Shown: positions 3,931-62,365 of the stretch, in pieces | Numbering within the stretch: the stretch's first letter is position 1 | Layout of the letters: each line of letters starts with the position of its first letter | Source: Heterocephalus glaber | Taxonomy: Eukaryota > Chordata > Mammalia > Rodentia > Bathyergidae | Direction: 5' to 3' | DNA: 64,000 nt | Assembly: GCF_000247695.1 (NCBI RefSeq) | Contig: NW_004624743.1 | Span: 5,228,522-5,292,521 of the forward strand | Notes under the pieces: model-generated | The model's input: only the letters and a program-made list of their open reading frames with translations | The model's database searches: none | What the model was told of the DNA's origin: nothing | Position numbers and translations under genes: made by a program

Positions 3931-5040
3931 TTATTTGGCATTTCAGAAGAATTTTTCATAGTCATTTATAATATCTGAAAATCCTCCTGTCAGTTAGAGA
4001 AGGAAAGTTCAGCTTTAATCACTGGGGTAAGTTACAGAAAGCAAGAACGTGTGTCAGAATCGCAAGCAATTCCATTCTAGTAGGTAGAGGGAACAAGGTG
4101 ATAAAGAGTTGGCATGTTTATCTCCATCAAAAAAGAAAATTTGTTTATTTTCTTTTACAAATAAAATACATTAATTTTCTTCTGAATTTGTAGAATAAAA
4201 GCAATAACTCTATGAGGGAACAGACTTTATGAAGAGGTTGCAATTGCTGGGTTGATAGAAAATGAAATCAAATATAAAGTAGGGAATTCAAACTCAGTTG
4301 CTGCCTTTTTATTCACATACACAGGCTGAAAAGCTGCACATTTTATAGTGAAACAGTAATTAATTAATACATCTTGCCTGGAAAAATTCCCAGTACACCC
4401 AATTTATAGTAAGCATTAATTGGTCCCAAGAACATTTCAACTAATGAATGTTCCCTTTAAATGTTCTGTTAGTATCTCTACTTTTTATTTCCACTTTATC
4501 CTTGCTCTGGTATAAATCAGCTCATGTTAGCTGAAGAAAACACAGTAGTTGTCATTATTTAGTGACACCTTCTGCTATCTTCCTTGATTGTTTTAGTCAG
4601 TTTCCCTGTTACATTTGTGTTTCTCTTTGTGAGACCCTCAGGGCAAAAGTTCACAGAGAGTGAAATAAAGCTCCCTGCTATGATACCAGTTTACCAATTT
4701 CCGATCAAGAAGTTCTCTGCAGAAAGAGAAGACCTTGATTCACAAGTGTTTAGTTTCTTTCATTGCTGATTTCCAGATGTTTTAATTACATATCCTAATG
4801 CATCTCTTGACAATGAAGCTATTAAAGGGAACAGGAAAGCCATAGACAGCTGGTGTTCCATCAGGCTTCCTAAGTCACATCTCTTGCATTTCCAGGGATC
4901 TCCTTTTGTAGCTCTCAGGCCTCACTATGGAGGAAGAAGAAAGGAGGGTCAATAGTGCTCTACATGGGAAACTCCACCGATGGAAGCAAAATAAATTGCA
5001 CTATTCATTTATTTTAAACATTATAAATAACATTTGATAG
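3931..5040. other. Unassigned DNA
   Basis: No gene or repeat recognised. Only short open frames occur, with no exon-like boundaries. Confidence 0.4.
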
Positions 5041-5044
5041 GAAT

Positions 5045-5460
5045 ATTTTTTTATTCATGAAGTTTATTGGTACATTTTAGGTATACGGTATGATGACATT
5101 CATCATTGGGAATTTGTACCTTTACATGATGTATCTTGGTTCTTATTTTATCCCCATTTGCCCGCTCTCCCCTTCCAAGATCATTGCTGACACATAAAGT
5201 GAAATTTCTATTTTGTTCTAACATCACACGGGCAGAAATTCATTCCTCAAGGATCCTTGCTGTTCCTGCCATTGCTTTCCATTTGTTATTACTTGTCATT
5301 GGGGAACCACATTACATATTTCCTTCAAAATATGTGTATATTGCCCATAAGTTAATGTTTCCTCTCAGTCTTCTAATTGGAAATTTCTACTAAAATATTG
5401 TTCTTATGCATAATTCCCTGTGACCTAATTTAAATATCTCTGTAAAGTTTTGTAAATCAA
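5045..5460 (-). repeat. L1 3' end, antisense
   Basis: The plus strand shows the reversed L1 3' untranslated pattern: a 'gttcattggtacat'-type start, a coastal run of C/T-rich text near 5150-5180, then 'cattgctttcc'-like ORF2-distal text. It resembles the better copies at 7005 and 61495, but is more decayed. Confidence 0.45.
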
Positions 5461-6770: not shown

Positions 6771-7004
6771 GTATGAAGATTGTAGCATAAACATTGTTTT
6801 TATTGTTCTTGCACTATTATCAATATATTTTATTATATTTTTAAAGTGCAAAGGAAAATCATTGGCTAAGCCCATAGATTTTTCTTCTGCTATGAAATAA
6901 AGTTCCTACTCATAAAAATACATTTTACACACGTGAGATTGAAAATATTTCCATTTTAATTGTTTTGGAGTTTTATTACTGAATTTATTTTATTGGATTT
7001 TATT

Positions 7005-7450
7005 TATTTTTCTTAGTACACATTTGTAGTGGATAACAATTACATTCCTCCTGGGAAGTTGGTGCATGGACACAATAGCTCTTAATTTCTTTTTTCTCAT
7101 CCCCTTTCTCTTCCTCCTTCCTTCTCTCTCCATCTCCTGGTCATTTTCCCCTTTGCAGTAGATCTATCTCCTGGTTTCCTATAATCTATCTTTTATTTTG
7201 CTCTTTAGTTATAATTTGAGTTTCTCATATAAAAGAAACCACACCATATTGAAGCTTGTGTGTCTGATTTATTTCACTTAGCATTATAGTCTCAAGGTGC
7301 ATCTGTTTTCCTACAAATCACTCATGTTTCCTTTTTATGGCTGAGTAGTACTCTGTCGTGTGTAAATGCCACACTGTCTTTGTTCATTCGTCTGTTGAGG
7401 GGCATATAGGTTGCTTTCAAGATTTAGTTATGATGAACTGTTTTAGTTTT
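7005..7450 (-). repeat. L1 3' end, antisense
   Basis: Reversed L1 3' end of the same lineage as 44495, 59083 and 61495: 'gttggtgcatggacacaat', a C/T-rich block, 'gagtttctcatataaaagaaa', 'ggctgagtagtactctg' and 'tgttcattcgtctgttgag'. The right end abuts a short A-rich duplication at 7453. Confidence 0.75.
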
Positions 7451-15049: not shown

Positions 15050-15490
15050 GAAGACCTGAGAAGCTGCAGATGTTAGAAATGTAGGATGTCAGCTGAGGAA
15101 ACCTGCAGGCAGGGAGCAGAGCTAGCCCTACAGATAGGCCATGTGGTTGGGGCTGGGATGCAGCCCCAGTGCTTTGGAGTTTACATTTCACCTTGCCCGC
15201 CTTTGGAGCTGGACCTGGAGTTAAATAAATTAATCTTTGCCCTGCTGGTTTTGCTCTTGCTTAGGTCCAATTCCTTTTTATAAGCCTATTTCTCCTTTGG
15301 AATGGGAATGTTTATTCTCTTTACTCGGTATTGTTGTATTTGGAATCATTTAATTTTCCCTCTTCTTTTTACATGGGCTCAAACTTAGTTTACCTTGAGT
15401 CTCAGAGAAGACTTTGGGCCTGGACTTTCCAACACAGCTGGATCTATTAAGATTTTGATAATTCTTAGAGAAGGGCTAAATTCCATAAAG
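15050..15490 (+). mobile_element. MaLR (ERVL-type) internal remnant
   Basis: The order 'tgccctgctggttttgctct', 'ctcctttggaatgggaatg', 'gtctcagagaagactttggg' parallels the non-coding internal region just upstream of the 3' LTR in MaLR elements. No gag or pol is expected in this part. It is interrupted on the right by an L1 3' end, and no adjacent LTR is visible. Confidence 0.6.
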
Positions 15491-15494
15491 AAAG

Positions 15495-15830
15495 TAAACT
15501 TCAGGTACATGCAGGAAAATGGACGTACCTTGAGACTATGATGTTAAGTGAAATTAATCAGACAAGCAAGCTTAACTATTACATGATCTCCCTTATTTGA
15601 GGAACCCAAAATATAAAAAAGCAAAATAAAAGATGTACATTAGTAAACAAGGATATAGATCTTTTCCAAAAGGGAAGGGGACCAACAGATGGAGGGAGGG
15701 GAAGAAACAGAGTTGAAGGGAATGAAGAAAGAATTAAAATATGTTATGTACATGTACCAACCCCCACAATGGATATAATAATTATGTACAGCAAACATGT
15801 TCCAGTAAAAACATAAATTAATAGAAAGAA
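15495..15830 (+). repeat. L1 3' end, sense
   Basis: Contains 'tgatgttaagtgaaattaat' and a purine-rich G/A block at 15660-15735, ending in an A-rich tract near 15800-15830. Typical sense L1 3' untranslated region, 5'-truncated. Confidence 0.75.
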
Positions 15831-18599
15831 GAAATACAGTAGAGTTTAGATTGTCATGTTTATAGCGTGAAATGATTTTTAGATCTCTCTAAATATTTGG
15901 AACAGCCAGACCTACGTACGTATCAAGCGTGGTGTGATGGGTCAGCTGACTCTTCAGTCTGGAACTAGTACTAGTGCTCTTGAACACAACAGTGCATTAA
16001 GTATGGCTTTAAACTGTAACATCAAACTGAAGTTTACCATTGTGAGGGTTTTCTCACATTTCTATAAGGAAGAAAGCCCTTCTTTCCTCATAAAATGTCA
16101 GAGGTAACATAGCAAATATTATTATTGTACTTCTTCTTTTGAAAATCTGCTTGTCAAATTGACTCAACTCCCATATCCAACTGAGGACAGAGTGAGACTT
16201 AGGTCCTAGGAAGAGTCTTCCTTATATATAAGCTCATTATTTCCTAGCCTCAGTTCCTAATTAATCATGTGATGTTTAACAGCAATGTACAGCTATTCCC
16301 CTTTATCTTATCTTTGTGTCATTCTAAATATTCAGTTCAGGCACAATGTTTGTCTCCCAGGAGATGTAGAAATTGCACAAACAAGTCTTCTTTTTCTTTG
16401 AAAACTTAGACTAGAAGTTCTATTTCATTCTATTTCTTTGTGGATATCACAAATGACCCTTGAGTCGTCCTTCCTATTCTATGAAAAATGCATTTTCCAC
16501 TCTCTAGCTTATACGTGCTTTTCTATACTCACTCTTTCTATTGATTTATAATTGCATATATCCACACTTTATAGACAAAATCACTCTCATTCAAACATGG
16601 GGCCCTAGTAACCAATATATAGTTTTTATAATGTTTCCAAATGTTTTGAAGATTCATCATAAATCATCATTTATTTTAAGAATGACCTTCTAATCACTGC
16701 TTTGCCATGGTAAACAATCTTCCCATTTTCTTTCCTTGAGTTTTTTTATTTGGCCTGCTGGAAGGTGAGGTATAAAATTATATTTCTCATCCTGTTTGAC
16801 CACATTCTTTCATTTTCTTTAGCAATTTCTCTATATAAAGTAGATTTTAGAAGAAACTTCAACTAAGTGACAAGCATAGTGCTCTTCATTGTACAGTGGT
16901 CAAACTGTCCATTATATTGGTGGACTTCTGAACTGCCATAAAAATCAGTGCTACCTCTTCTTATTCCATAAACTAGCAGAATTACCCTTGATGGTACAAA
17001 AAAAGCCCAAATTCATTCTATAAACATTTTATCACCAGGAATTTTCTTTTAAAATATTATTTCCCTTATTTCATTTCATTCTCCAATAAACATTATCCCT
17101 TGCTCAAAAAAATTACATTTCACATTTTCTAAGAATTGAATCTTGACTTCTCATCCTTATTTGTTGAATACTTGCCAGAAATGTTTAGCATGACTATTAC
17201 TTTGAATCAATCTTTGCACTTATATCCATTCTTTTCTTTCTAATCTTTCGAAAATGATGTTTTTATCTGGTTTTTCATGGCCTAGATATCTCTTCACTGA
17301 TTATATAATCAATTTAATTTGTCTTTATATACTTCTAGTGCTCCACCATTTGACTTCTCTGGACATTTTAATCTCATTACACCAGAGCCATACCTGCTAT
17401 ACCTAATCAGCTTCATAATTGTGCTTATTCTTCAGCACTCACTACTGTATTTGCAAATGCTAATATTATTCTACCCTGCACACAATGAGCTCAACTCCAC
17501 AAAAGCATAACTTTGCAGCTTGACACTCCTACCAAATTAATTTACACCCTTTTATCTTCTTACTTCATTTTACTTTACTCATCTGCAAAACAATAATAAT
17601 ATCATCTTTGAAAGAGAGGGGTGAAATAGCAATATATGCACAGTTTCCTAAAATTACAACTATTCAGTGGAAATTGAAATATATGCAAATTTTCTAAAAT
17701 TAAAACTATTCAGTGGAGATGGAATATTATATTTTCTTCCAAAGTTCAAACCACAGTTTAACTCTTCCAAGAATATTTTGTGTTACTTAAGTTGCTGTAA
17801 TAGAGTTTCGCTCTTTAATTAGAACTTAGGAGTTAAACTTGAGGGGAAAACAATGTACCTTGTACTAGAAAATGAATTCAGGCATTACATGTGACAGTGT
17901 TTCTGTTTAACTCTTTGTTTGAACATTCTTATAAGATTTATTGCCTTAAATGGACCATTTCAATCTCAAACAATCCCAATGCTTTTGAAGTATTTTTCTT
18001 CTTATTTCAGGACAAACCCATCTTTCTGCAATACTTATTCACTAGTCCACTCACTGTTTTTTGATATTACAAAACCACAACAACCAACAGTAAGAAGCGG
18101 ACAAAATATGGCTTGTAGGTTTTCTCAGGTCTTTTACTGTCTGATATAAATACAAATCATTAAAATGTTCAGCTTTTTGAGAGGCAAATGAATAGCTTTG
18201 TAAATTTATCTTCTTTGGATTGAAAATTTAAAATTCCTTTTTTGTGTTTATATAATTTTTTTCAGTTTTGTTAAATCCACACGGTAACTTGTACCATAAC
18301 ACAGATTGCTATTTGTTGTTCAAATCCCAATTTTAATATTTAAAAATTTATGTTCAGTAAAATTTAATCATAAGAACATACTTTGGTTTCTGTATTTTAT
18401 TAATTGATCATGAAGGTGGCCAGTAAACTAGATATGCTTAAAATGTTTCCTATTTATTGTGAAGAAAATAACTTTTAGGTGGGAAATAAAACATGACACT
18501 AGAAATAATGGTATTAATATCTAGAGCAATAATAAAAATAGGAGTAAAAATTACAAAGGGCACATAGAATATAAAGTACTGATAACATAAAAAGTTATC
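15831..18599. other. Unassigned AT-rich DNA
   Basis: Nothing recognised beyond the short tandem duplication at 17629. Several ATTT-rich stretches. Confidence 0.4.
17629..17722. repeat. Two-copy tandem duplication, 47-base period
   Basis: The unit containing 'atatatgca', 'ctaaaatta' and 'aactattcagtgga' appears twice, with the second copy offset by 47 bases and about six differences. Neither copy matches a repeat I know. Confidence 0.85.
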
Positions 18600-18795: not shown

Positions 18796-18887
18796 GTGTG
18801 TATGTGTGTTTGGGGTACTGGTGATTGGACTCAAGACCTTGGACTTGTGAGGCAGGCAGCGGAACCAATGAGCTAAATCCCTGGCCC
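18796..18887 (-). mobile_element. ID-like tRNA-derived SINE with a TG-rich tail
   Basis: Reversed SINE body at 18811-18887 (B box 'gattggactcaagacc', A box 'gagctaaatccctggccc'). The 13-base duplication tggaggtatattt at 18783-18795 and 18888-18900 is perfect and defines the insertion. The tail complement at 18796-18810 is TG-rich rather than pure T, so the A-tail has turned into a microsatellite. Confidence 0.93.
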
Positions 18888-19300
18888 TGGAGGTATATTT
18901 TTTAAAAGTTCACACATATTTCTTTCTTTCTTGGTGAAGGAACTCAGTGAATAAGACAAAATAGTTTTGGAACTTCACCTTATTTACTAATGAGTATCCT
19001 CTCAGTCTATGGAATAATTTAATACTTATCTTTGGAATCTGTTTAATAAAATATAAACATATAATATATTTAAATATGTAATTTTTATGAAAGACACAAA
19101 CTATGGACAAATAATATACCATATAGATGGTAATTTTTGTGATTTTAGTGGCATGTGTTCATTTGCATCTATAGTACCTATTTGATGAAATGCTTTCAAG
19201 TATTTCATCATCTGAAAAAATAATGATTGGCATAAATTTTTCAAAACAAGAACATATCTTATAATTTCAACAGTTTCATTTCACACTTTTCAAAATAAAA

Positions 19301-21198: not shown

Positions 21199-21287
21199 AT
21201 TTTTTTTTTCCGTCAGTACTAGGGATCAAACTCGGGACCTTGTGTTTACGAGGCAGGCGCCAGAACCACTGAGCTAAATCCCGGCCC
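21199..21287 (-). mobile_element. ID-like tRNA-derived SINE
   Basis: T-run followed by the reversed B box 'gatcaaactcgggacc' and the A-box side 'gagctaaatcccggccc'. A perfect 11-base duplication, atgtttaccac, flanks it at 21188-21198 and 21288-21298. A young copy. Confidence 0.95.
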
Positions 21288-21464
21288 ATGTTTACCACTT
21301 TTAAACAACATATTTCTTCATTTTTACTTTGTATCTTGAATATGAAGCCTTCTGATAATGTACCTGATTTTGACATTTCCTTAGAGTACCTTATGAGTCA
21401 CTGTCCCATTGCTTAGACACAACGCCTGACATCCAAAAGTTAAGAGAGAAATTAAATGTGGTAT

Positions 21465-21779: not shown

Positions 21780-22312
21780 CCCAAATGCCTCTCTGTGATG
21801 AAGAGTTGGTTGCTGCCTGATGTGCTTTTGGGAAGTGTTTGGAGCAAGAGGCCTCTAATTTCCTCAAGTGGACTAACAGATTGAGTTCATTACCTGATTA
21901 GGCTGCTAGCAGGTGGAGCATAGTTGGAAGAATTCAGTCACTGAGAAAACACCTTTGAAGGCCATATTTTGTCTACTCCTCTTTTTTTTTTTTTGGTACC
22001 AGGGGATCGAACTTGGATCCTTGTGCTTGCAAGGCAGGCAGCAGAACCACCGAGCTAAATCTCCAATCCATGTCTACTCTTTGCTTTCTCTTTCCCTTTC
22101 TTACTTTTTGCTTCCTGGTTTCCATGAAGTGAACAGTGTTGCTCCATAGTGCCTTTCCGCCATTAATCTTCACCTTGTCTCAGGCATCCAGCCGTGGAAC
22201 TGGATGACCATGGACTGAAACATCTGAAATCCATAGCCAAATTAAACCTTTGTTAAAAAATTATTATTCTCAAGGATTTGTCACACAATAAAAAGCTGAC
22301 TAACATAGCAAC
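21780..22312 (+). repeat. MLT1/MaLR-type LTR, sense
   Basis: Contains the MaLR U3-R order: 'gtgcctttccgccattaatc', 'agccgtggaactggatgacc', 'ccaaattaaacctttgtt', and the end 'aaaagctgactaacatagc'. Interrupted by the SINE at 21981-22070. The left limit is uncertain. Confidence 0.65.
21981..22070 (-). mobile_element. ID-like tRNA-derived SINE inside an LTR
   Basis: T-run and reversed SINE body with box motifs 'ggatcgaacttggatcc' and 'gagctaaatctcc'. The duplication tgtctactc(c/t) occurs at 21970-21979 and 22071-22080. It postdates the surrounding LTR. Confidence 0.93.
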
Positions 22313-22330
22313 TTATATGAGATTTAGACA

Positions 22331-22422
22331 GGGCCAGGGATTTAGCTCAGTGGTTCTGGCGACTGCCTCACAAGCGCAAGGTCCAGAGTTTGATCCCGGG
22401 TACCAAAAAAAAAAAAAAAAAA
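22331..22422 (+). mobile_element. ID-like tRNA-derived SINE cut by the assembly gap
   Basis: Starts gggccagggatttagctcag, has B box 'gtttgatcccgg', and ends in a run of at least 18 A that is cut by unknown bases. The right-hand duplication therefore cannot be seen. Confidence 0.93.
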
Positions 22423-23142
22423 NNNNNNNNNNNNNNNNNNNNNNNNNNNNNNNNNNNNNNNNNNNNNNNNNNNNNNNNNNNNNNNNNNNNNNNNNNNNNN
22501 NNNNNNNNNNNNNNNNNNNNNNNNNNNNNNNNNNNNNNNNNNNNNNNNNNNNNNNNNNNNNNNNNNNNNNNNNNNNNNNNNNNNNNNNNNNNNNNNNNNN
22601 NNNNNNNNNNNNNNNNNNNNNNNNNNNNNNNNNNNNNNNNNNNNNNNNNNNNNNNNNNNNNNNNNNNNNNNNNNNNNNNNNNNNNNNNNNNNNNNNNNNN
22701 NNNNNNNNNNNNNNNNNNNNNNNNNNNNNNNNNNNNNNNNNNNNNNNNNNNNNNNNNNNNNNNNNNNNNNNNNNNNNNNNNNNNNNNNNNNNNNNNNNNN
22801 NNNNNNNNNNNNNNNNNNNNNNNNNNNNNNNNNNNNNNNNNNNNNNNNNNNNNNNNNNNNNNNNNNNNNNNNNNNNNNNNNNNNNNNNNNNNNNNNNNNN
22901 NNNNNNNNNNNNNNNNNNNNNNNNNNNNNNNNNNNNNNNNNNNNNNNNNNNNNNNNNNNNNNNNNNNNNNNNNNNNNNNNNNNNNNNNNNNNNNNNNNNN
23001 NNNNNNNNNNNNNNNNNNNNNNNNNNNNNNNNNNNNNNNNNNNNNNNNNNNNNNNNNNNNNNNNNNNNNNNNNNNNNNNNNNNNNNNNNNNNNNNNNNNN
23101 NNNNNNNNNNNNNNNNNNNNNNNNNNNNNNNNNNNNNNNNNN
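22423..23142. other. Assembly gap (720 N)
   Basis: Unknown bases. The gap opens exactly at the end of a poly(A) run, so assembly failure at a SINE tail or a homopolymer is the likely cause. Any open frame across it is an artefact. Confidence 1.
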
Positions 23143-33389: not shown

Positions 33390-33395
33390 GCATAT
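33390..33395 (+). repeat. Target-site duplication, left copy
   Basis: gcatat, identical to 35067-35072 in the same orientation. Six bases is the usual duplication length for betaretroviral/ERVK-type integration. Confidence 0.8.
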
Positions 33396-33930
33396 TATCA
33401 GGAGCAATGCTACATAATTTTAGGGAACAATCATTTGGTTAGTCTGGTTCTCCTGCCTAGAGCCCGGCTATGGAATTCCAAGACATAATTCCATTTTGGC
33501 CTCCGGTCACAACTGAGACCTCAATGATCCAGTGATGTTGTGATTCTCCAGGATAAGACTACACCAGATGAACACATGCTGGGAGGAACCAAATCTTCAT
33601 CTGCATAGTTTCTCATTGTTCTTGGATTTCTGCAACCCCCGAGTCTTTTGTTACACCTTGTTTATCCCAATGTGAGGTACTGAACTCTGCATTTCATTTG
33701 TTATACCTGTTTCTCCTGATGTAGTGAATAAAAGGTGCTGCAAGCTCGGGGTCTTTCGTCTTTGCTGCCCAGAGCAGCACTGATCAGACTCAAGGCTCAG
33801 CATCTTCTCCAAGTCTCATTTTTCTACCTTTCCTGCATAATAAGTTAATTTGCCTTGTGCTGCCGTGGCTCACAGGAGACTAGGACTCACTGCAGGGGTT
33901 CTAGTAATGTCCCCCTTCCCTGTTCCTTTA
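33396..33930 (+). repeat. ERVK-like LTR, sense
   Basis: About 535 bases. It starts tatcaggagcaatg (the opposite end has the expected tg start, tgtcaggagcaatg). An aataaa at 33727-33732 doubles as a TATA-like box. The 'gctcggggtctttcgtcttt' stretch after it fits an R region. U5 runs to just before the primer-binding site. The exact 3' end is uncertain because a terminal ca is not visible. Confidence 0.75.
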
Positions 33931-33932
33931 TT

Positions 33933-33950
33933 TGGAACCCAACGCGGGGC
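33933..33950 (+). other. Primer-binding site, tRNA-Lys type
   Basis: tggaacccaacgcggggc lies directly after the LTR and matches the lysine-1,2 tRNA primer-site pattern of class II retroviruses at about 15 of 18 positions. Its position supports the orientation of the left LTR. Caveat: the same bases could be read as antisense protease-side coding sequence, so part of the match might be coincidence. Confidence 0.65.
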
Positions 33951-34200
33951 AGATTTGGAAATCTCTTGGGTGAAATACATCTTTTCTTGAGGAATTTCTG
34001 GCTGAGGATCCTCTCGGGAATTTTTAAAGCTAACACTATTTAATTTTGGATTAGGCAAAAGCAACAATTGTGCAATATAATCTCCTTTTTCTATTACCCA
34101 GAGTCCTGTGGAGCTAACAGGAACACACAATTCAGGGGTACAATCAGAATCAACAATAGCCAGAATAACAGTAATGCCTTTCAAAGTTAGAATTTGCCAA
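33951..34200 (-). pseudogene. Retroviral dUTPase / protease-start remnant, antisense
   Basis: On the minus strand the frame carries the two C-terminal dUTPase signatures: a VDSD motif at about residues 11-14 of the visible stretch, and GDYIAQLLLLP about 30 residues later. It then runs towards the start of the protease domain ('YFTQEIS') before meeting the primer-site/LTR sequence of the left half. The N-terminal dUTPase part and the protease active site are missing. In betaretroviruses dUTPase is encoded in the pro frame between gag and pol, which matches the neighbouring nucleocapsid remnant. No function expected. Confidence 0.75.
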
Positions 34201-34600
34201 GTATCAAACCAATAGTTTTGGGGGGTGGGGGTCCATGAATTCCTGTGGGGACAGTTACCAGAGTCTCACCTCCCAGCAGCTATTCCTGAGCTCCCAAGTG
34301 TTTCCCTGACGAGGGAAGAAACGTCCCTCCATCACCCATGCTGTCTGATTTTGTACTTGTGCATGGGTCTGAACCGGGTACCACTGACTCAGGGGGACTG
34401 GTGCGCCCTGGCCCTGATCTCCTATAGTTTCCTGGGCCCAATTTCCATTTTCCCTGCAGCAGTGTGCCATCCTTATCATATTTGGAGTGGCAGGCTTTAG
34501 CCCAGTTGAATGCCTTTTCGACAGTGAGGGCAAGGGCCAGGTGGTAACTTATTTTCTTTGGGTGCCTGACCTAGAGGCTCTGGGTCAGCTTGTAAAGCCA
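34201..34600 (-). pseudogene. Retroviral gag nucleocapsid remnant, antisense
   Basis: A zinc-knuckle-like stretch sits at 34487-34531 on the minus strand: the first two cysteines (CPHC) lie in one frame, and the later FNWAKAC part lies in another, so a one-base frame break splits the knuckle; the usual histidine is replaced by asparagine. Downstream residues towards dUTPase include 'DKDG' and 'GKWK' as in the post-knuckle linker of class II gag. Matrix, capsid and most of gag are absent; RPL41 sequence replaces what should lie upstream. Confidence 0.65.
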
Positions 34601-34601
34601 C

Positions 34602-34941
34602 TGTAACGCTGTCTTCTTACAAAACTCTGCACCATGAGAGCCAAGTGGAGGAAGAAGTGAATGCACAGGCTGAAGCACAAAAGAAGAAAGATGAGGCAGA
34701 GATCCAACTAAAATAGCTTGTACATCTCTGGAGGCCTAAGGAGCAGAAATAAGGAATGCTGGAGGCTGAGGATGCCGGTACAAGTAGACTGCATGCTACT
34801 ATCTAGAATGTGTCTCAATGGATTTGAACTTTGTTACCACCTGATCGCCAAGACCACCTCAGAGAAACCCACCTTGTTCATAATTAAAGCAGTCCCGGTC
34901 GATCTTTTCCACTGGATCTGTGTGGCATTCTGGACTACTGT
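34602..34941 (+). pseudogene. RPL41: RPL41 retrocopy (processed pseudogene) inside the retrovirus
   Basis: RPL41 encodes the 25-residue, Arg/Lys-rich protein of the large ribosomal subunit. The start codon is at 34634 within the characteristic context 'ctctgcaccatgagagccaa', followed by W-R-K-K at codons 5-8; the stop is at 34709, giving exactly 25 codons. Codon 9 is a nonsense tga (from a CpG arginine codon), and other arginine CpG codons have become cac, so it is dead. The 5' untranslated region is recognisable from about 34602, and the 3' untranslated region from 34712 to about 34941 ('gactgcatgctactatctag', 'attctggactact'). The terminal part of the mRNA, its polyadenylation signal and the poly(A) are absent; the sequence passes directly into inverted LTR. 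No L1-type duplication flanks the retrocopy. Confidence 0.92.
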
Positions 34942-35066
34942 TCCCAGTTGTGAACAGAGGCCAGAATGGAATTATGTCTCAGAATTCCATAGCTGGGCTG
35001 TAGACAGGAGAACTAGGTCTAACCAAATGATTTTTTCCCTAAAGTTATGTAACATTGCTCCTGACA
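34942..35066 (-). repeat. Inverted partial LTR (U3 start only)
   Basis: The reverse complement aligns with 33396-33518 over about 124 bases with roughly 17 differences by hand count (about 86% identity). The outer edge is the U3 start, tgtcaggagcaatgttac. Beyond 34942 the homology stops and RPL41 begins. Confidence 0.85.
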
Positions 35067-35072
35067 GCATAT
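35067..35072 (+). repeat. Target-site duplication, right copy
   Basis: gcatat, matching 33390-33395. Confidence 0.8.
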
Positions 35073-47758: not shown

Positions 47759-47839
47759 TTTTTTTTTCTGTACCTGGGTTCGAACTCTGGACCTTGTGCT
47801 TGCGAGGGAGGCGCGGTGCCACTTAGCTAAATCCTCTGC
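47759..47839 (-). mobile_element. ID-like tRNA-derived SINE
   Basis: T-run, reversed B box 'gggttcgaactctggacc', 'cttgcgagggaggcgcgg', and A-box side 'cttagctaaatcctc'. Moderately young; no clean duplication was found. Confidence 0.88.
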
Positions 47840-51794: not shown

Positions 51795-52140
51795 AAGCAC
51801 ATTGTATTTCAATACTCAGACGAACAAAGCACTGTTTTTATACTCCAGAGGACCAAAACGTATGATAGATAATGTGAAATAAGAAAAGGTCCAAAGGGGA
51901 AGGGGAAATAGGGAGGAGAGTTAGGGGAAAGGAAAGAAGGGTATGGAGAAAAATATGAAAAAAGAAGGAAAAAATGGAAACAAAGCTTTTTTTAAATATA
52001 GAGGGATGGAGGGGGTAAGAGAGGGCAGGGGAAGGGGGAAAAATAAGAACCAAGGTACATCATGTACAGGTAAAGACTCCCAATGATGCATGGGATCATA
52101 ATGTATACCTAAAATGAACCAGTAAACAATTAAAATAAAA
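51795..52140 (+). repeat. L1 3' end, sense
   Basis: 'cagacgaacaaagcactg', a long G/A-rich block (51885-52040), 'accaaggtacatcatgtaca', 'gcatgggatcataatgtata' and a terminal 'aattaaaataaaa'. A well-kept L1 3' end with its polypurine region and tail. Confidence 0.78.
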
Positions 52141-52228
52141 AGATTGCTACTTGGCCAGCAAGCTCATGTTCATTAATTAATTCAGTAACTATCAAATGCT
52201 TTCTCATCATAGAAGGTATTGAAAAAGC

Positions 52229-54497: not shown

Positions 54498-54509
54498 AAA
54501 AGCATGCTG

Positions 54510-54591
54510 GGCCGGGGATTTAGCTCAGTGGTTCCAGTGCTGGCCTCGCAAGCACAAGGTCCCAAGTTCGATCCCCGGTACCAAAAAAAAA
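54510..54591 (+). mobile_element. ID-like tRNA-derived SINE, young
   Basis: ggccggggatttagctcagt start, B box 'gttcgatccccgg', 13-A tail. A perfect 12-base duplication, aaaagcatgctg, at 54498-54509 and 54592-54603. The duplication spans the edge of the LTR to its right, so the SINE inserted after that LTR. Confidence 0.97.
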
Positions 54592-54601
54592 AAAAGCATG
54601 C

Positions 54602-59082: not shown

Positions 59083-60430
59083 AGTAGATGTGAGGCGTAC
59101 ACAGGGTTCACATTCCCCATGGGAAGCTGGCACCTGTACACAACACATCTTAATCCCTTTTCTCATTCTGTGTTCCTTTCCTCCCTTGTCCCTCCACAAA
59201 TCTCTTGATTCTCTTCCTTTTTGGGGGGGCACATGTTTGCAGTGCATAATGTCCACGTTCCTTGTTTGGAGTTTGTATATGCCCACAACATATTTTAATC
59301 CCTCTTTCATCACTTATCTGTCCCCTCTCCCCCCTCACTCCAGGTTTTGACCCCTTTCCCTTTTGAGTATGCTCTATATTCCTACTTACTATTATCTATA
59401 CTTTATTTTACTTTGAATTTCTCTATAAGAGAATCAATGTTATAATTAAGCTTATGTATCTGATTTATTTCATTGAACTTTATGGTCTCAAGGTGCATCC
59501 ACTTTCCTACAAATGACTCCAAGTTTAACTTTATGGCAGATTAGTGCTCTATGGTCTGTAAATTTTCTTTATCCATTCATCTGTTGAAGGACACATGGGC
59601 CAATTTCAAGATTTAGCTGTTATGAATTGTGCTTCTATAAACATGGTTAGGCCATATCATTGTAGTATGATGTCTTTGACTTTTTTCAGGAAGACACATA
59701 GAAGGGGAACAGCTGGGCCAAGCGGAGTTTCTAATTTATTTTCCTGAAGAACCTCCTTACAGATTTCCACAATTTACTTTCCACCAACAGTGTCGAAGGG
59801 GGCCTTTGTCCCCACAGCTTTGCCAGTGTTTGTTATTATTTGATTTCTCGATGATGACCATTCATTCTAAGGCAGTATGGACTCCCCAGAATTGTTCGTG
59901 AACCCAGGAATGACTGTATCACAAAGTTTGTCACTTTAAACATTTTCATTGTACAATTCAGGAACATTAATTACATTCACAATATTATACTAGAAGCACC
60001 ACTATGTAAAATTTTTCGTCAGCCCAAAGAGAAAGTCTAACATAACTAAAAAATAACTCTCCATTTTCTTCTTCCTCTAGCCCCTGGGAATGCCTAATGC
60101 TGAATCCACTTTCTCTATGAATGTGTGCTTTAGATTTTCATATAAGGAAAACCATTAATAATTGTCTCTTGTTGTCTAATGGGTCTAAAGTGCTATCTCC
60201 TTGGGGTTATGATTTGCATCCCTCTTAATGGTTAATTAGGTTGTGTAGTTTTTCATTTGCTTACTGGCCCTTAGAGATCTCCAAATACCCCAATTCAAGA
60301 CCTTTGTCAATTTTTAAACCTAGTGTGTTTAGTTGTTGTTGAGTTGTAGGTACACCTTAGACATTCTGAATGTGAAACCTTTATGAATATTATACATATG
60401 CACTTTACCTCCTGCTGTTCTCCTCAGTAA
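59083..60430 (-). repeat. L1 3' region, antisense, with duplicated 3' end
   Basis: Reversed L1 with two successive 3'-end units (59083-59230 and 59231-59375), then 'gtatctgatttatttcattg', 'tttatccattcatctgttga', 'cattctaaggcagtatgg', and 'gttatgatttgcatccctct' further on. The right end is followed by a GA-rich tract. Confidence 0.72.
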
Positions 60431-60534: not shown

Positions 60535-61490
60535 TTAAGGAAATTTATTCTTCATGCTGGCCAGACCAAAATTGGTAAGATAGCCCAGCAGGCTAGAGAC
60601 CCTGGGAAAGGTACATTTCTGGTCCAAATGCAGCCTGCAGGCAAAATATCCTCTTCCTTTGATGATATACATCTTTCCCTCTTAAATAATGCCTGAGTCT
60701 CATTGCGTGCATTCCAGTCAGGTTATGAACCATAGTATGCTTTCCTCAAAATCTAATTTAAATATCAGTATCATTTAAAAATTCACAGAAATATCTTAAA
60801 AATATATTTGACCAAGTATGTAGTAACATAGTCTACCCGTGGTGCCAAATTGACACATACAATTAACTGTGAGAGGTGAACAAATATTTATATTTAAAGT
60901 GTTAATAAAATCCAATGTTCTACGTTTTTTCTTTTGTCATGAATTCTTTGGGCACCAGGTCTAAAAATCTCTGCAAGAGATTTTCCCACTTCACTCACAT
61001 ACTTAATCAACTTTTAAAGTCTCTATAATAAGCCTTTTTACTTGACACTATTGAATATTTTTCTGCTCATTTTTTCAGCAGCTAAGAGCATTTTTATGTA
61101 TAATAAATACACAATACCAACTGACTGAATTGTGATATCTAGGTCTCCCGTTTTCTCCTCTGATCTACTTTCTGCCTTTTCCCACCACCTTCTTCCTTTT
61201 GGGAGGCTGGGCTGTCTGCATCACACTCCATAAATGTGTACATTTGTCACTTGAATTCCCCTAGAAATTGACAGACAGGGAACCCTGCAGGAGATGAGAA
61301 GGTGATGACAGCATTGTTATTCTACCATGTGTGTCTCTTCAGGGTCACCAGGCTGCCCTGCCTCCCCTGCCTCTTACATCCATACGAAGGCAACCCTCTC
61401 CAGACTCTTCACTCTCCAGGGGCAATCCCTTTTCTCACGCCTTTATGCTATCTTTGAACAGAGCCACACTGTGCCACACACTTCACTCTT
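60535..61490. other. Unassigned DNA
   Basis: No gene. The text at 60545-60690 may be a fragment of an LTR, not identified. Confidence 0.35.
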
Positions 61491-61494
61491 TTTC

Positions 61495-61762
61495 ATTTAT
61501 GTATTTATTTTAGTAGTCCATGTTTGCAGTCTATAATCATTACAATTATCATGGGAGTTGGTGCATGTACACAACACATCTTCGTTCTTCTCCTACGCTT
61601 CCTCTCCTTCCCTGCTCCTTCCAACTGTTGGTCCCCTCCCATTTGGAAAATTTTATCTATCTTCCATTATGCTTTCTCTGTTTATTTCTCTGTCTCTTCC
61701 TCCTTCTATGGTGCAATAGGATATCTCTCCCTGGCAGAGAGGAAGAGAGAGACAGAAAGACT

Positions 61763-61797
<35 letters not shown>

Positions 61798-62365
61798 GAG
61801 AGAGAGAGAGTTTCTCATATTAGAGAAACCATGTGTTGGTGGAGCTTGTGTGTCTGCCTCATTTCACACATTATGGTTTCAGGCTGCATCCATTTACCTA
61901 TGAATGTTTCAAATTTATTTTTCTTTATGGCAGAGTAGTACTCCTTTGTGTATAAATACCATGTTTTTTCTATTCATCTGCACAATGGCATATATGCCAT
62001 TTTCAAAATTTAGCTATTACAAATTGTGCTGCTATAAATATTCCTTTTCCTTTATTCCCACAGTATGTCTTTAACTCTTTCAAGACGATATCTAGAAATG
62101 GAATATCTGGGTCCACTGGAATTTCTATTTTGGTTTTTGGAAGAATCTCCACACTGATTTCCATAGTGGCTGCACTGGTTTACATTCCCATCAAGAGTGT
62201 CGAAGGCTTCCTTTGTTCCCACACTCTTGTCAGTGTTTTTTATTTGATTTCTTGACACTAGCCATTCTTTCTGAATGACGATAGCATCTCTGTGTTGTAA
62301 TTTGTATTTCTGCAGTGGACAACAATATTGAACATTTTTCATGTATTTATTGTACGCCACACATT
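61495..62365 (-). repeat. L1 3' end, antisense
   Basis: The clearest reversed L1 3' end in the window: 'gggagttggtgcatgtacac', C/T-rich block, (GA)n, 'tttctcatattagagaaacc', 'ggcagagtagtactcctttg', 'ttccatagtggctgcactgg', 'tttcttgacactagccattc'. Any open frames here are L1 shadows. Confidence 0.85.
61742..61811 (+). repeat. (GA)n microsatellite inside L1
   Basis: About 30 GA units with interruptions, grown inside the L1 3' region at the point where related copies (7005, 59083) have only a short segment. Confidence 0.95.

Follow-up and report, generated by a model that had tools for sequence, protein, structure and literature searches.

How does a retroviral insertion come to have the U3 end of its LTR at both of its outer edges? 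This question is raised by an element in Heterocephalus glaber that lies within a stretch of 64,000 nt (RefSeq assembly GCF_000247695.1, contig NW_004624743.1, positions 5,228,522 to 5,292,521 of the forward strand); we refer to this whole stretch as the window, and all coordinates are given relative to its first base. An earlier note on this DNA described an inverted repeat of about 124 bases (33396-33518 and 34942-35066) with its U3 starts facing outwards and the hexamer gcatat on both flanks, and suggested that integrase had inserted an aberrant DNA in which both ends are U3, or that a later rearrangement had happened to keep both outer edges. The arrangement is not that of an ordinary provirus, in which U3 forms one edge, U5 forms the other, and the LTRs stand in direct order: both edges of the element are U3 starts, and each points outward.

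The inverted repeat is confirmed both by BLAST and by global alignment, with the coordinates as the earlier note gave them. A BLAST search with the element against the 64-kb window paired 33398-33518 with 35064-34942 at 87% identity (E 5.7e-36). In a global alignment that starts from the LTR edge, the arms differ by 15 substitutions over 123 paired columns (12 transitions and three transversions) and by two internal one-base gaps, corresponding to a K2P distance of 0.136. A 29-base U3 pattern, built from the two element copies themselves, matched the window twice with up to three mismatches, once on each strand, and matched none of 100 shuffled sequences. The outer terminus is the canonical tg on the right; on the left it is ta, one base off.

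The matching gcatat flanks were also confirmed, and a 6-base target duplication is that of class II (ERVK/betaretrovirus-like) elements. Pairs of hexamers at the spacing of the element agree at 31 of the 60,867 positions in the window (5.1e-4, or about 1 in 2000), and whole-window hexamer counts give a chance identity of 3.9e-4 to 6.1e-4. We considered and rejected the possibility of an assembly error: the single N run in the window (22423-23142) is more than 10 kb from the element, and a matching duplication would not be expected from a false join. The features of the element and their coordinates are collected in Table 1.

Table 1. Features of the element, from left to right, in window coordinates.
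Feature	Position	Strand	Basis or remark
Left target-site duplication, gcatat	33390..33395		Read in sequence
LTR, about 537 bp	33396..33932	+	Left U3 edge set by the inverted copy; U5 end within a few bases either way
PBS-like 18-mer	33933..33950	+	15/18 to a lysine-1,2 PBS
Stretch after PBS-like site, 75 bases	33951..34025		Outside all family and PDB matches; could be the last part of antisense pro or retroviral leader
Antisense pro, dUTPase, two frames (one frameshift)	34026..34279	-	Pfam dUTPase and PDB 2d4l, weak matches
Antisense gag-pro junction region with nucleocapsid zinc finger	34280..34535	-	Pfam zf-CCHC_5 and PDB 1dsv, weak matches
Stretch before RPL41, 85 bases	34536..34620		No retroviral or RPL41 match; contains the middle join; putative antisense gag
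Intronless RPL41 mRNA copy	34621..34937	+	79% (256/325 columns, 15 gaps) to an RPL41 mRNA stretch
RPL41 reading frame, 25 codons and stop, one internal stop	34634..34711	+	21/25 residues
Inverted U3 stub, first ~124 bases of the LTR	34942..35066	-	BLAST and global alignment; U3 start outward
Right target-site duplication, gcatat	35067..35072		Read in sequence

The left LTR contains an AATAAA at 33727, and we found no clear terminal CA at its U5 end ahead of the PBS-like site. The part of the LTR that is not shared with the right arm (33521-33932) has no second copy elsewhere in the window; its best match there is at chance level (E 0.26), and one chance-level match (26 bases, 85%) falls within the right U3 stub. 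The LTR is followed directly by an 18-mer that we take to be a Lys1,2 type PBS-like site. Against the reference site, the next best places on either strand of the window, nine of them, match at only 12 of the 18 positions.

Between the PBS-like site and the RPL41 copy, the element reads as retroviral sequence in the opposite orientation to the left LTR. Six pieces were scanned against Pfam, of which two had viral domains, one had only a RING match, and three had no match. The dUTPase family was matched by residues 27-80 of the piece 33870-34265 (corresponding to 34026-34187) with an E value of 0.0026, which is below the curated cut-off, and the minus strand of the same stretch matched residues 81-129 of a PDB 2d4l chain (E 0.002). 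In another frame, the piece 34187-34279 continues the dUTPase upstream (2d4l residues 60-79, E 0.0081), such that the two 2d4l matches cover adjoining stretches. A protein database search with the dUTPase piece returned four candidates, none at E 0.001 or better. The nucleocapsid zinc finger lies within about 34280-34570, where zf-CCHC_5 was matched with an E value of 6.8e-4, again below the curated Pfam cut-off, and p14 in PDB 1dsv with an E value of 0.033, the next matches being unrelated cytochrome c2 chains at 0.053. The finger is broken by a frameshift near 34500-34520; its first half (piece 34497-34616) was recognised by eye only, and the best Pfam match of that piece is a RING model (E 0.047). 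The two structures are those of an M-PMV protein (2d4l) and an MMTV protein (1dsv). A nucleocapsid zinc finger and a dUTPase, the combination that marks class II gag-pro, are thus each represented by weak single matches, in the right order and on the right strand, and despite the weak scores this order and strand agree with a betaretrovirus gag-pro region. No reverse transcriptase sequence was recognised within the insert.

The 75 bases that follow the PBS-like site and the 85 bases that precede the RPL41 copy lack matches, so that the left switch point (33950 to about 34026) and the middle join (about 34535 to 34621), two of the three joins, can be placed only within 75-85 bases. All three minus-strand frames are open over nearly the whole of 33951-34025, and an open frame there is thus no evidence for coding sequence. 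On the left side, a break exactly at the end of the PBS is consistent with these limits.

The remaining interior segment is a copy of a host mRNA, compared here with a stretch of RPL41 mRNA (Table 1); a single shuffled control (n=1, BLAST defaults) for this comparison gave nothing better than E 0.87. The best PDB match of the copy is eL41 (E 1e-5), and the next best place in the window for the reading frame at 34634 keeps 10 residues, as compared to the 21 of 25 kept here. The copy is truncated at both ends, starting in the 5' UTR and stopping in the 3' UTR 68 bases short of the end of the reference stretch; there is no poly(A) on 34621-34937, and only about five bases separate its right edge from the inverted U3 stub. 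Lack of poly(A) together with cuts in both UTRs is as in template switching, and is unlike a usual LINE-1 copy. An intronless host mRNA without poly(A) that abuts LTR-element sequence, as here, is the mark of an LTR-mediated retrocopy; the normal flanking LTR pair of such a copy is replaced on the right side by the inverted U3 stub. Reaching the eL41 peptide from the RPL41 frame takes at least four changes in 75 coding bases (0.053, a lower bound), and half of the K2P distance between the U3 arms is about 0.07 per branch; on these few sites, the two divergences appear compatible with one age and one event.

The U3 edges, the orientations, the order of the segments and the matching hexamer are read directly from the DNA. 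From left to right, the element consists of an LTR, a PBS-like site, antisense dUTPase, antisense nucleocapsid, RPL41 in the other sense, and the inverted U3 stub. Read as a strand that starts at the left U3 end, it runs from LTR and PBS-like site into antisense pro and gag; read as a strand that starts at the right U3 end, it runs from the U3 stub into antisense RPL41. Hence gag-pro and RPL41 stand in opposing senses, each antisense to the strand that starts at the nearer U3 end. No single RNA carries this order of segments. Template switching inside a particle would be expected to leave such a patchwork, in which viral and cellular RNAs have been copied in opposite senses, and we regard the antisense gag-pro and the captured RPL41 as the main evidence for how the DNA of the element arose.

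We consider it probable that the element is an aberrant cDNA with two U3 ends, made in a particle of a class II (betaretrovirus-like) element and inserted by integrase. This is one of the two origins that the earlier note had suggested; it is favoured, short of proof, because the mosaic interior with its opposing senses is bounded on both sides by an exact U3 edge and by the matching hexamer. As to the exact route, we tentatively propose one that used two plus strands, with ERV RNA and RPL41 mRNA as templates and a tail-to-tail fusion, while giving it somewhat less than an even chance of being correct. Both plus strands would have begun at the PPT. Plus-strand strong-stop DNA is initiated at the edge of U3 and stops 18 bases into the primer tRNA sequence. 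One strand would have copied U3-R-U5 and the PBS, and then switched at the end of the PBS or no more than about 75 bases past that point; the 3' end of this strand would have moved to genomic RNA in pro and copied back through the dUTPase into the gag nucleocapsid region. The other strand would have halted about 124 bases into U3 and jumped onto a packaged RPL41 mRNA within its 3' UTR, from where it would have copied this mRNA back into the 5' UTR. Both 3' ends could then have been paired or joined and extended, each with the other as template, to yield a duplex with a U3 start at each terminus, and this linear cDNA with U3 att ends would have been inserted once by the integrase of the element, with the 6-base duplication. 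That two separately started plus strands were fused in one particle into a linear DNA with inverted U3 ends, and that integrase accepted this DNA in the germ line, is a scenario that we hold to be possible rather than probable.

The switch points and their order, the choice between two plus strands and a single strand folded back onto its own U3, and the involvement of integrase are what we infer from the arrangement described above. The opposing senses of gag-pro and RPL41 match the prediction for two plus strands that copy RNA, and we found no simpler account that supplies each segment with both a primer and a template. Placing the left break at the PBS, or a little beyond it, would be in keeping with a plus strand that failed during the normal second transfer or soon thereafter; the general steps of reverse transcription are outlined elsewhere (PMC12789967). 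Against the model stand the abnormal joins that it requires, at least three of them, and the ta at the start of the left LTR; the element is known from one locus only.

Other explanations account for parts of the structure at different costs. Two neighbouring elements of one family, inserted in opposite orientations, could have had their 5' parts joined by a deletion or inversion, which would place U3 starts outward at both edges with no unusual reverse transcription; nested and oppositely oriented ERVs are common, and since the left join can be placed only within 33951-34026, the left half could belong to an ordinary element, as its LTR, PBS and leader. Such a later rearrangement, the other origin suggested in the earlier note, requires the two hexamers to be equal by chance (31 of 60,867 positions) and the right-hand element to have been chimeric already, consisting of a U3 stub, antisense RPL41 and gag, without R, U5, PBS or leader; the lack of a second copy of 33521-33932 in the window (best E 0.26) also argues against it, and we judge it unlikely. 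The RPL41 segment could instead be a LINE-1 processed pseudogene that landed in or beside a provirus, with deletions and inversions thereafter. RPL41 processed pseudogenes are common in mammals. LINE-1 dominates mammalian retroposition (PMC5408686). Against this origin are the lack of poly(A), the position of both ends in UTRs, and the right edge lying within about five bases of the U3 stub; moreover, none of the seven direct-repeat families found (repeats of at least 12 bases were covered) flanks 34621-34937, such that the copy has neither the poly(A) nor, among repeats of that length, the flanking duplication of its own that mark a processed pseudogene. We regard a LINE-1 origin as very improbable.

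An alternative that differs little from our proposed two-strand route is that a single plus strand copied gag-pro RNA, then RPL41 cDNA, and then folded back and copied its own U3, beginning near base 124 and running to base 1, after which the hairpin was opened. This would account for a right copy that is inverted, shorter than the left U3 and ends at base 1, and one start at the PPT would suffice. Nonetheless, the first strand of RPL41 would require a separate primer, which the two-strand route provides, and the hairpin would have to be opened; we think this origin quite improbable. The U3 divergence of 0.136 fits a fold-back and two templates alike, and telling them apart requires other LTRs of the family. 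We also rejected two further candidates as unlikely, by reasoning. Autointegration predicts a U5 terminus joined to an internal site, whereas in the element the LTR runs on into a PBS-like site, and the join lies beyond it. A simple inversion within a provirus would have to break exactly at the host junction to leave an outward U3 at both edges.

The integration step that the two-strand route calls for has a counterpart in vitro. Concerted integration by purified RSV integrase proceeds with donors that each bear a single U3 end (PMC3579926), and an octameric RSV intasome has been built with U3 oligonucleotides (PMC7955051). Since RSV integrase joins U3-only donors, by analogy linear DNA with U3 at either end would be a plausible integrase substrate. 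In both cases, the joined ends are U3 att sites; the in vitro system differs in using purified enzyme and improved (gain-of-function) U3 donors (PMC3579926, PMC7955051), rather than one linear cDNA in the germ line. Among the literature matches listed, as judged from titles and the starts of abstracts and with subscription journals mostly outside the coverage, there was no natural or in vivo insertion with two U3 ends.

The capture of a host mRNA likewise has precedents. Particles of LTR elements can take up cellular mRNA, to which reverse transcription can then switch, and LTR-mediated retroposition, with chimeric retrocopies arising from such template switching, is known (Tan and coworkers, cited in PMC5408686). 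The element shares with such events a partial mRNA copy inside LTR-element sequence, and its insertion was, we infer, also by integrase. In the model outlined in that review (PMC5408686), the new copy gains LTRs and has normal ends, with LTRs that would, in our reading, be in direct order; by contrast, the element described here has two U3 ends, gag-pro antisense to the LTR, and no second full LTR. Similarly, Ty1 yields retrosequences in yeast, where the reverse transcriptase of an LTR element copies host RNA and the copy enters the genome (PMC7175516); the part of that account covered here describes no product with two U3 ends, such as the element has. With an ordinary class II ERV provirus, the element has in common the 6-base duplication, the LTR followed by a PBS-like site, putatively of Lys type, the nucleocapsid zinc finger and the dUTPase; it differs in having no U5 outer end or 3' LTR, and in that its interior is reversed and mixed with host mRNA. 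Scans of viral contigs for U3, dUTPase and RPL41 found no relative (one scan gave eight pattern stretches, none of them confirmed), and neither did scans of prokaryotic contigs for U3 and RPL41, with records near the genome of the window possibly excluded from these scans. There was no Rfam match at the gathering score.

If the element does derive from a cDNA with two U3 ends, retroviral integrase can complete a paired insertion of two U3 ends outside the test tube, and failed reverse transcription can still produce heritable DNA. Particle cDNA would thereby have an additional way into the chromosome, for which a U5 end and completion of the second strand transfer are both dispensable. It would also mean that LTR elements in mammals can capture host mRNA in the opposite sense, in a setting where LINE-1 is credited with most retrocopies (PMC5408686). 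What appears to be an old, scrambled retroviral piece with a copy of a ribosomal-protein mRNA would then preserve in nature the trace of an unusual integration substrate. Genomes could be searched for further cases by a simple signature, in which U3 starts face outward at either edge, six bases are duplicated at the target and the interior flips in sense.

The window contains several other repeats. Dispersed short repeats at 2548-2634, 18829-18889, 21200-21294, 21981-22064, 22331-22417, 47759-47834 and 54508-54594 are 79-89% alike in the listed pairs, and the three that were inspected all finish in A-rich tails; these three resemble ID-type tRNA-derived SINEs, which would fit a rodent. ARAGORN called no tRNA genes in the window. 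The assembly gap at 22423-23142, a run of 720 Ns, comes directly after the A tail of one SINE-like repeat. A divergent interspersed family (6977-7441, 15483-15841, 59228-59868 and 61487-62272) is present on both strands, with pairs 69-73% alike, and a separate inverted pair of about 146 bases (5038-5177 and 52007-52149) has 79% identity.
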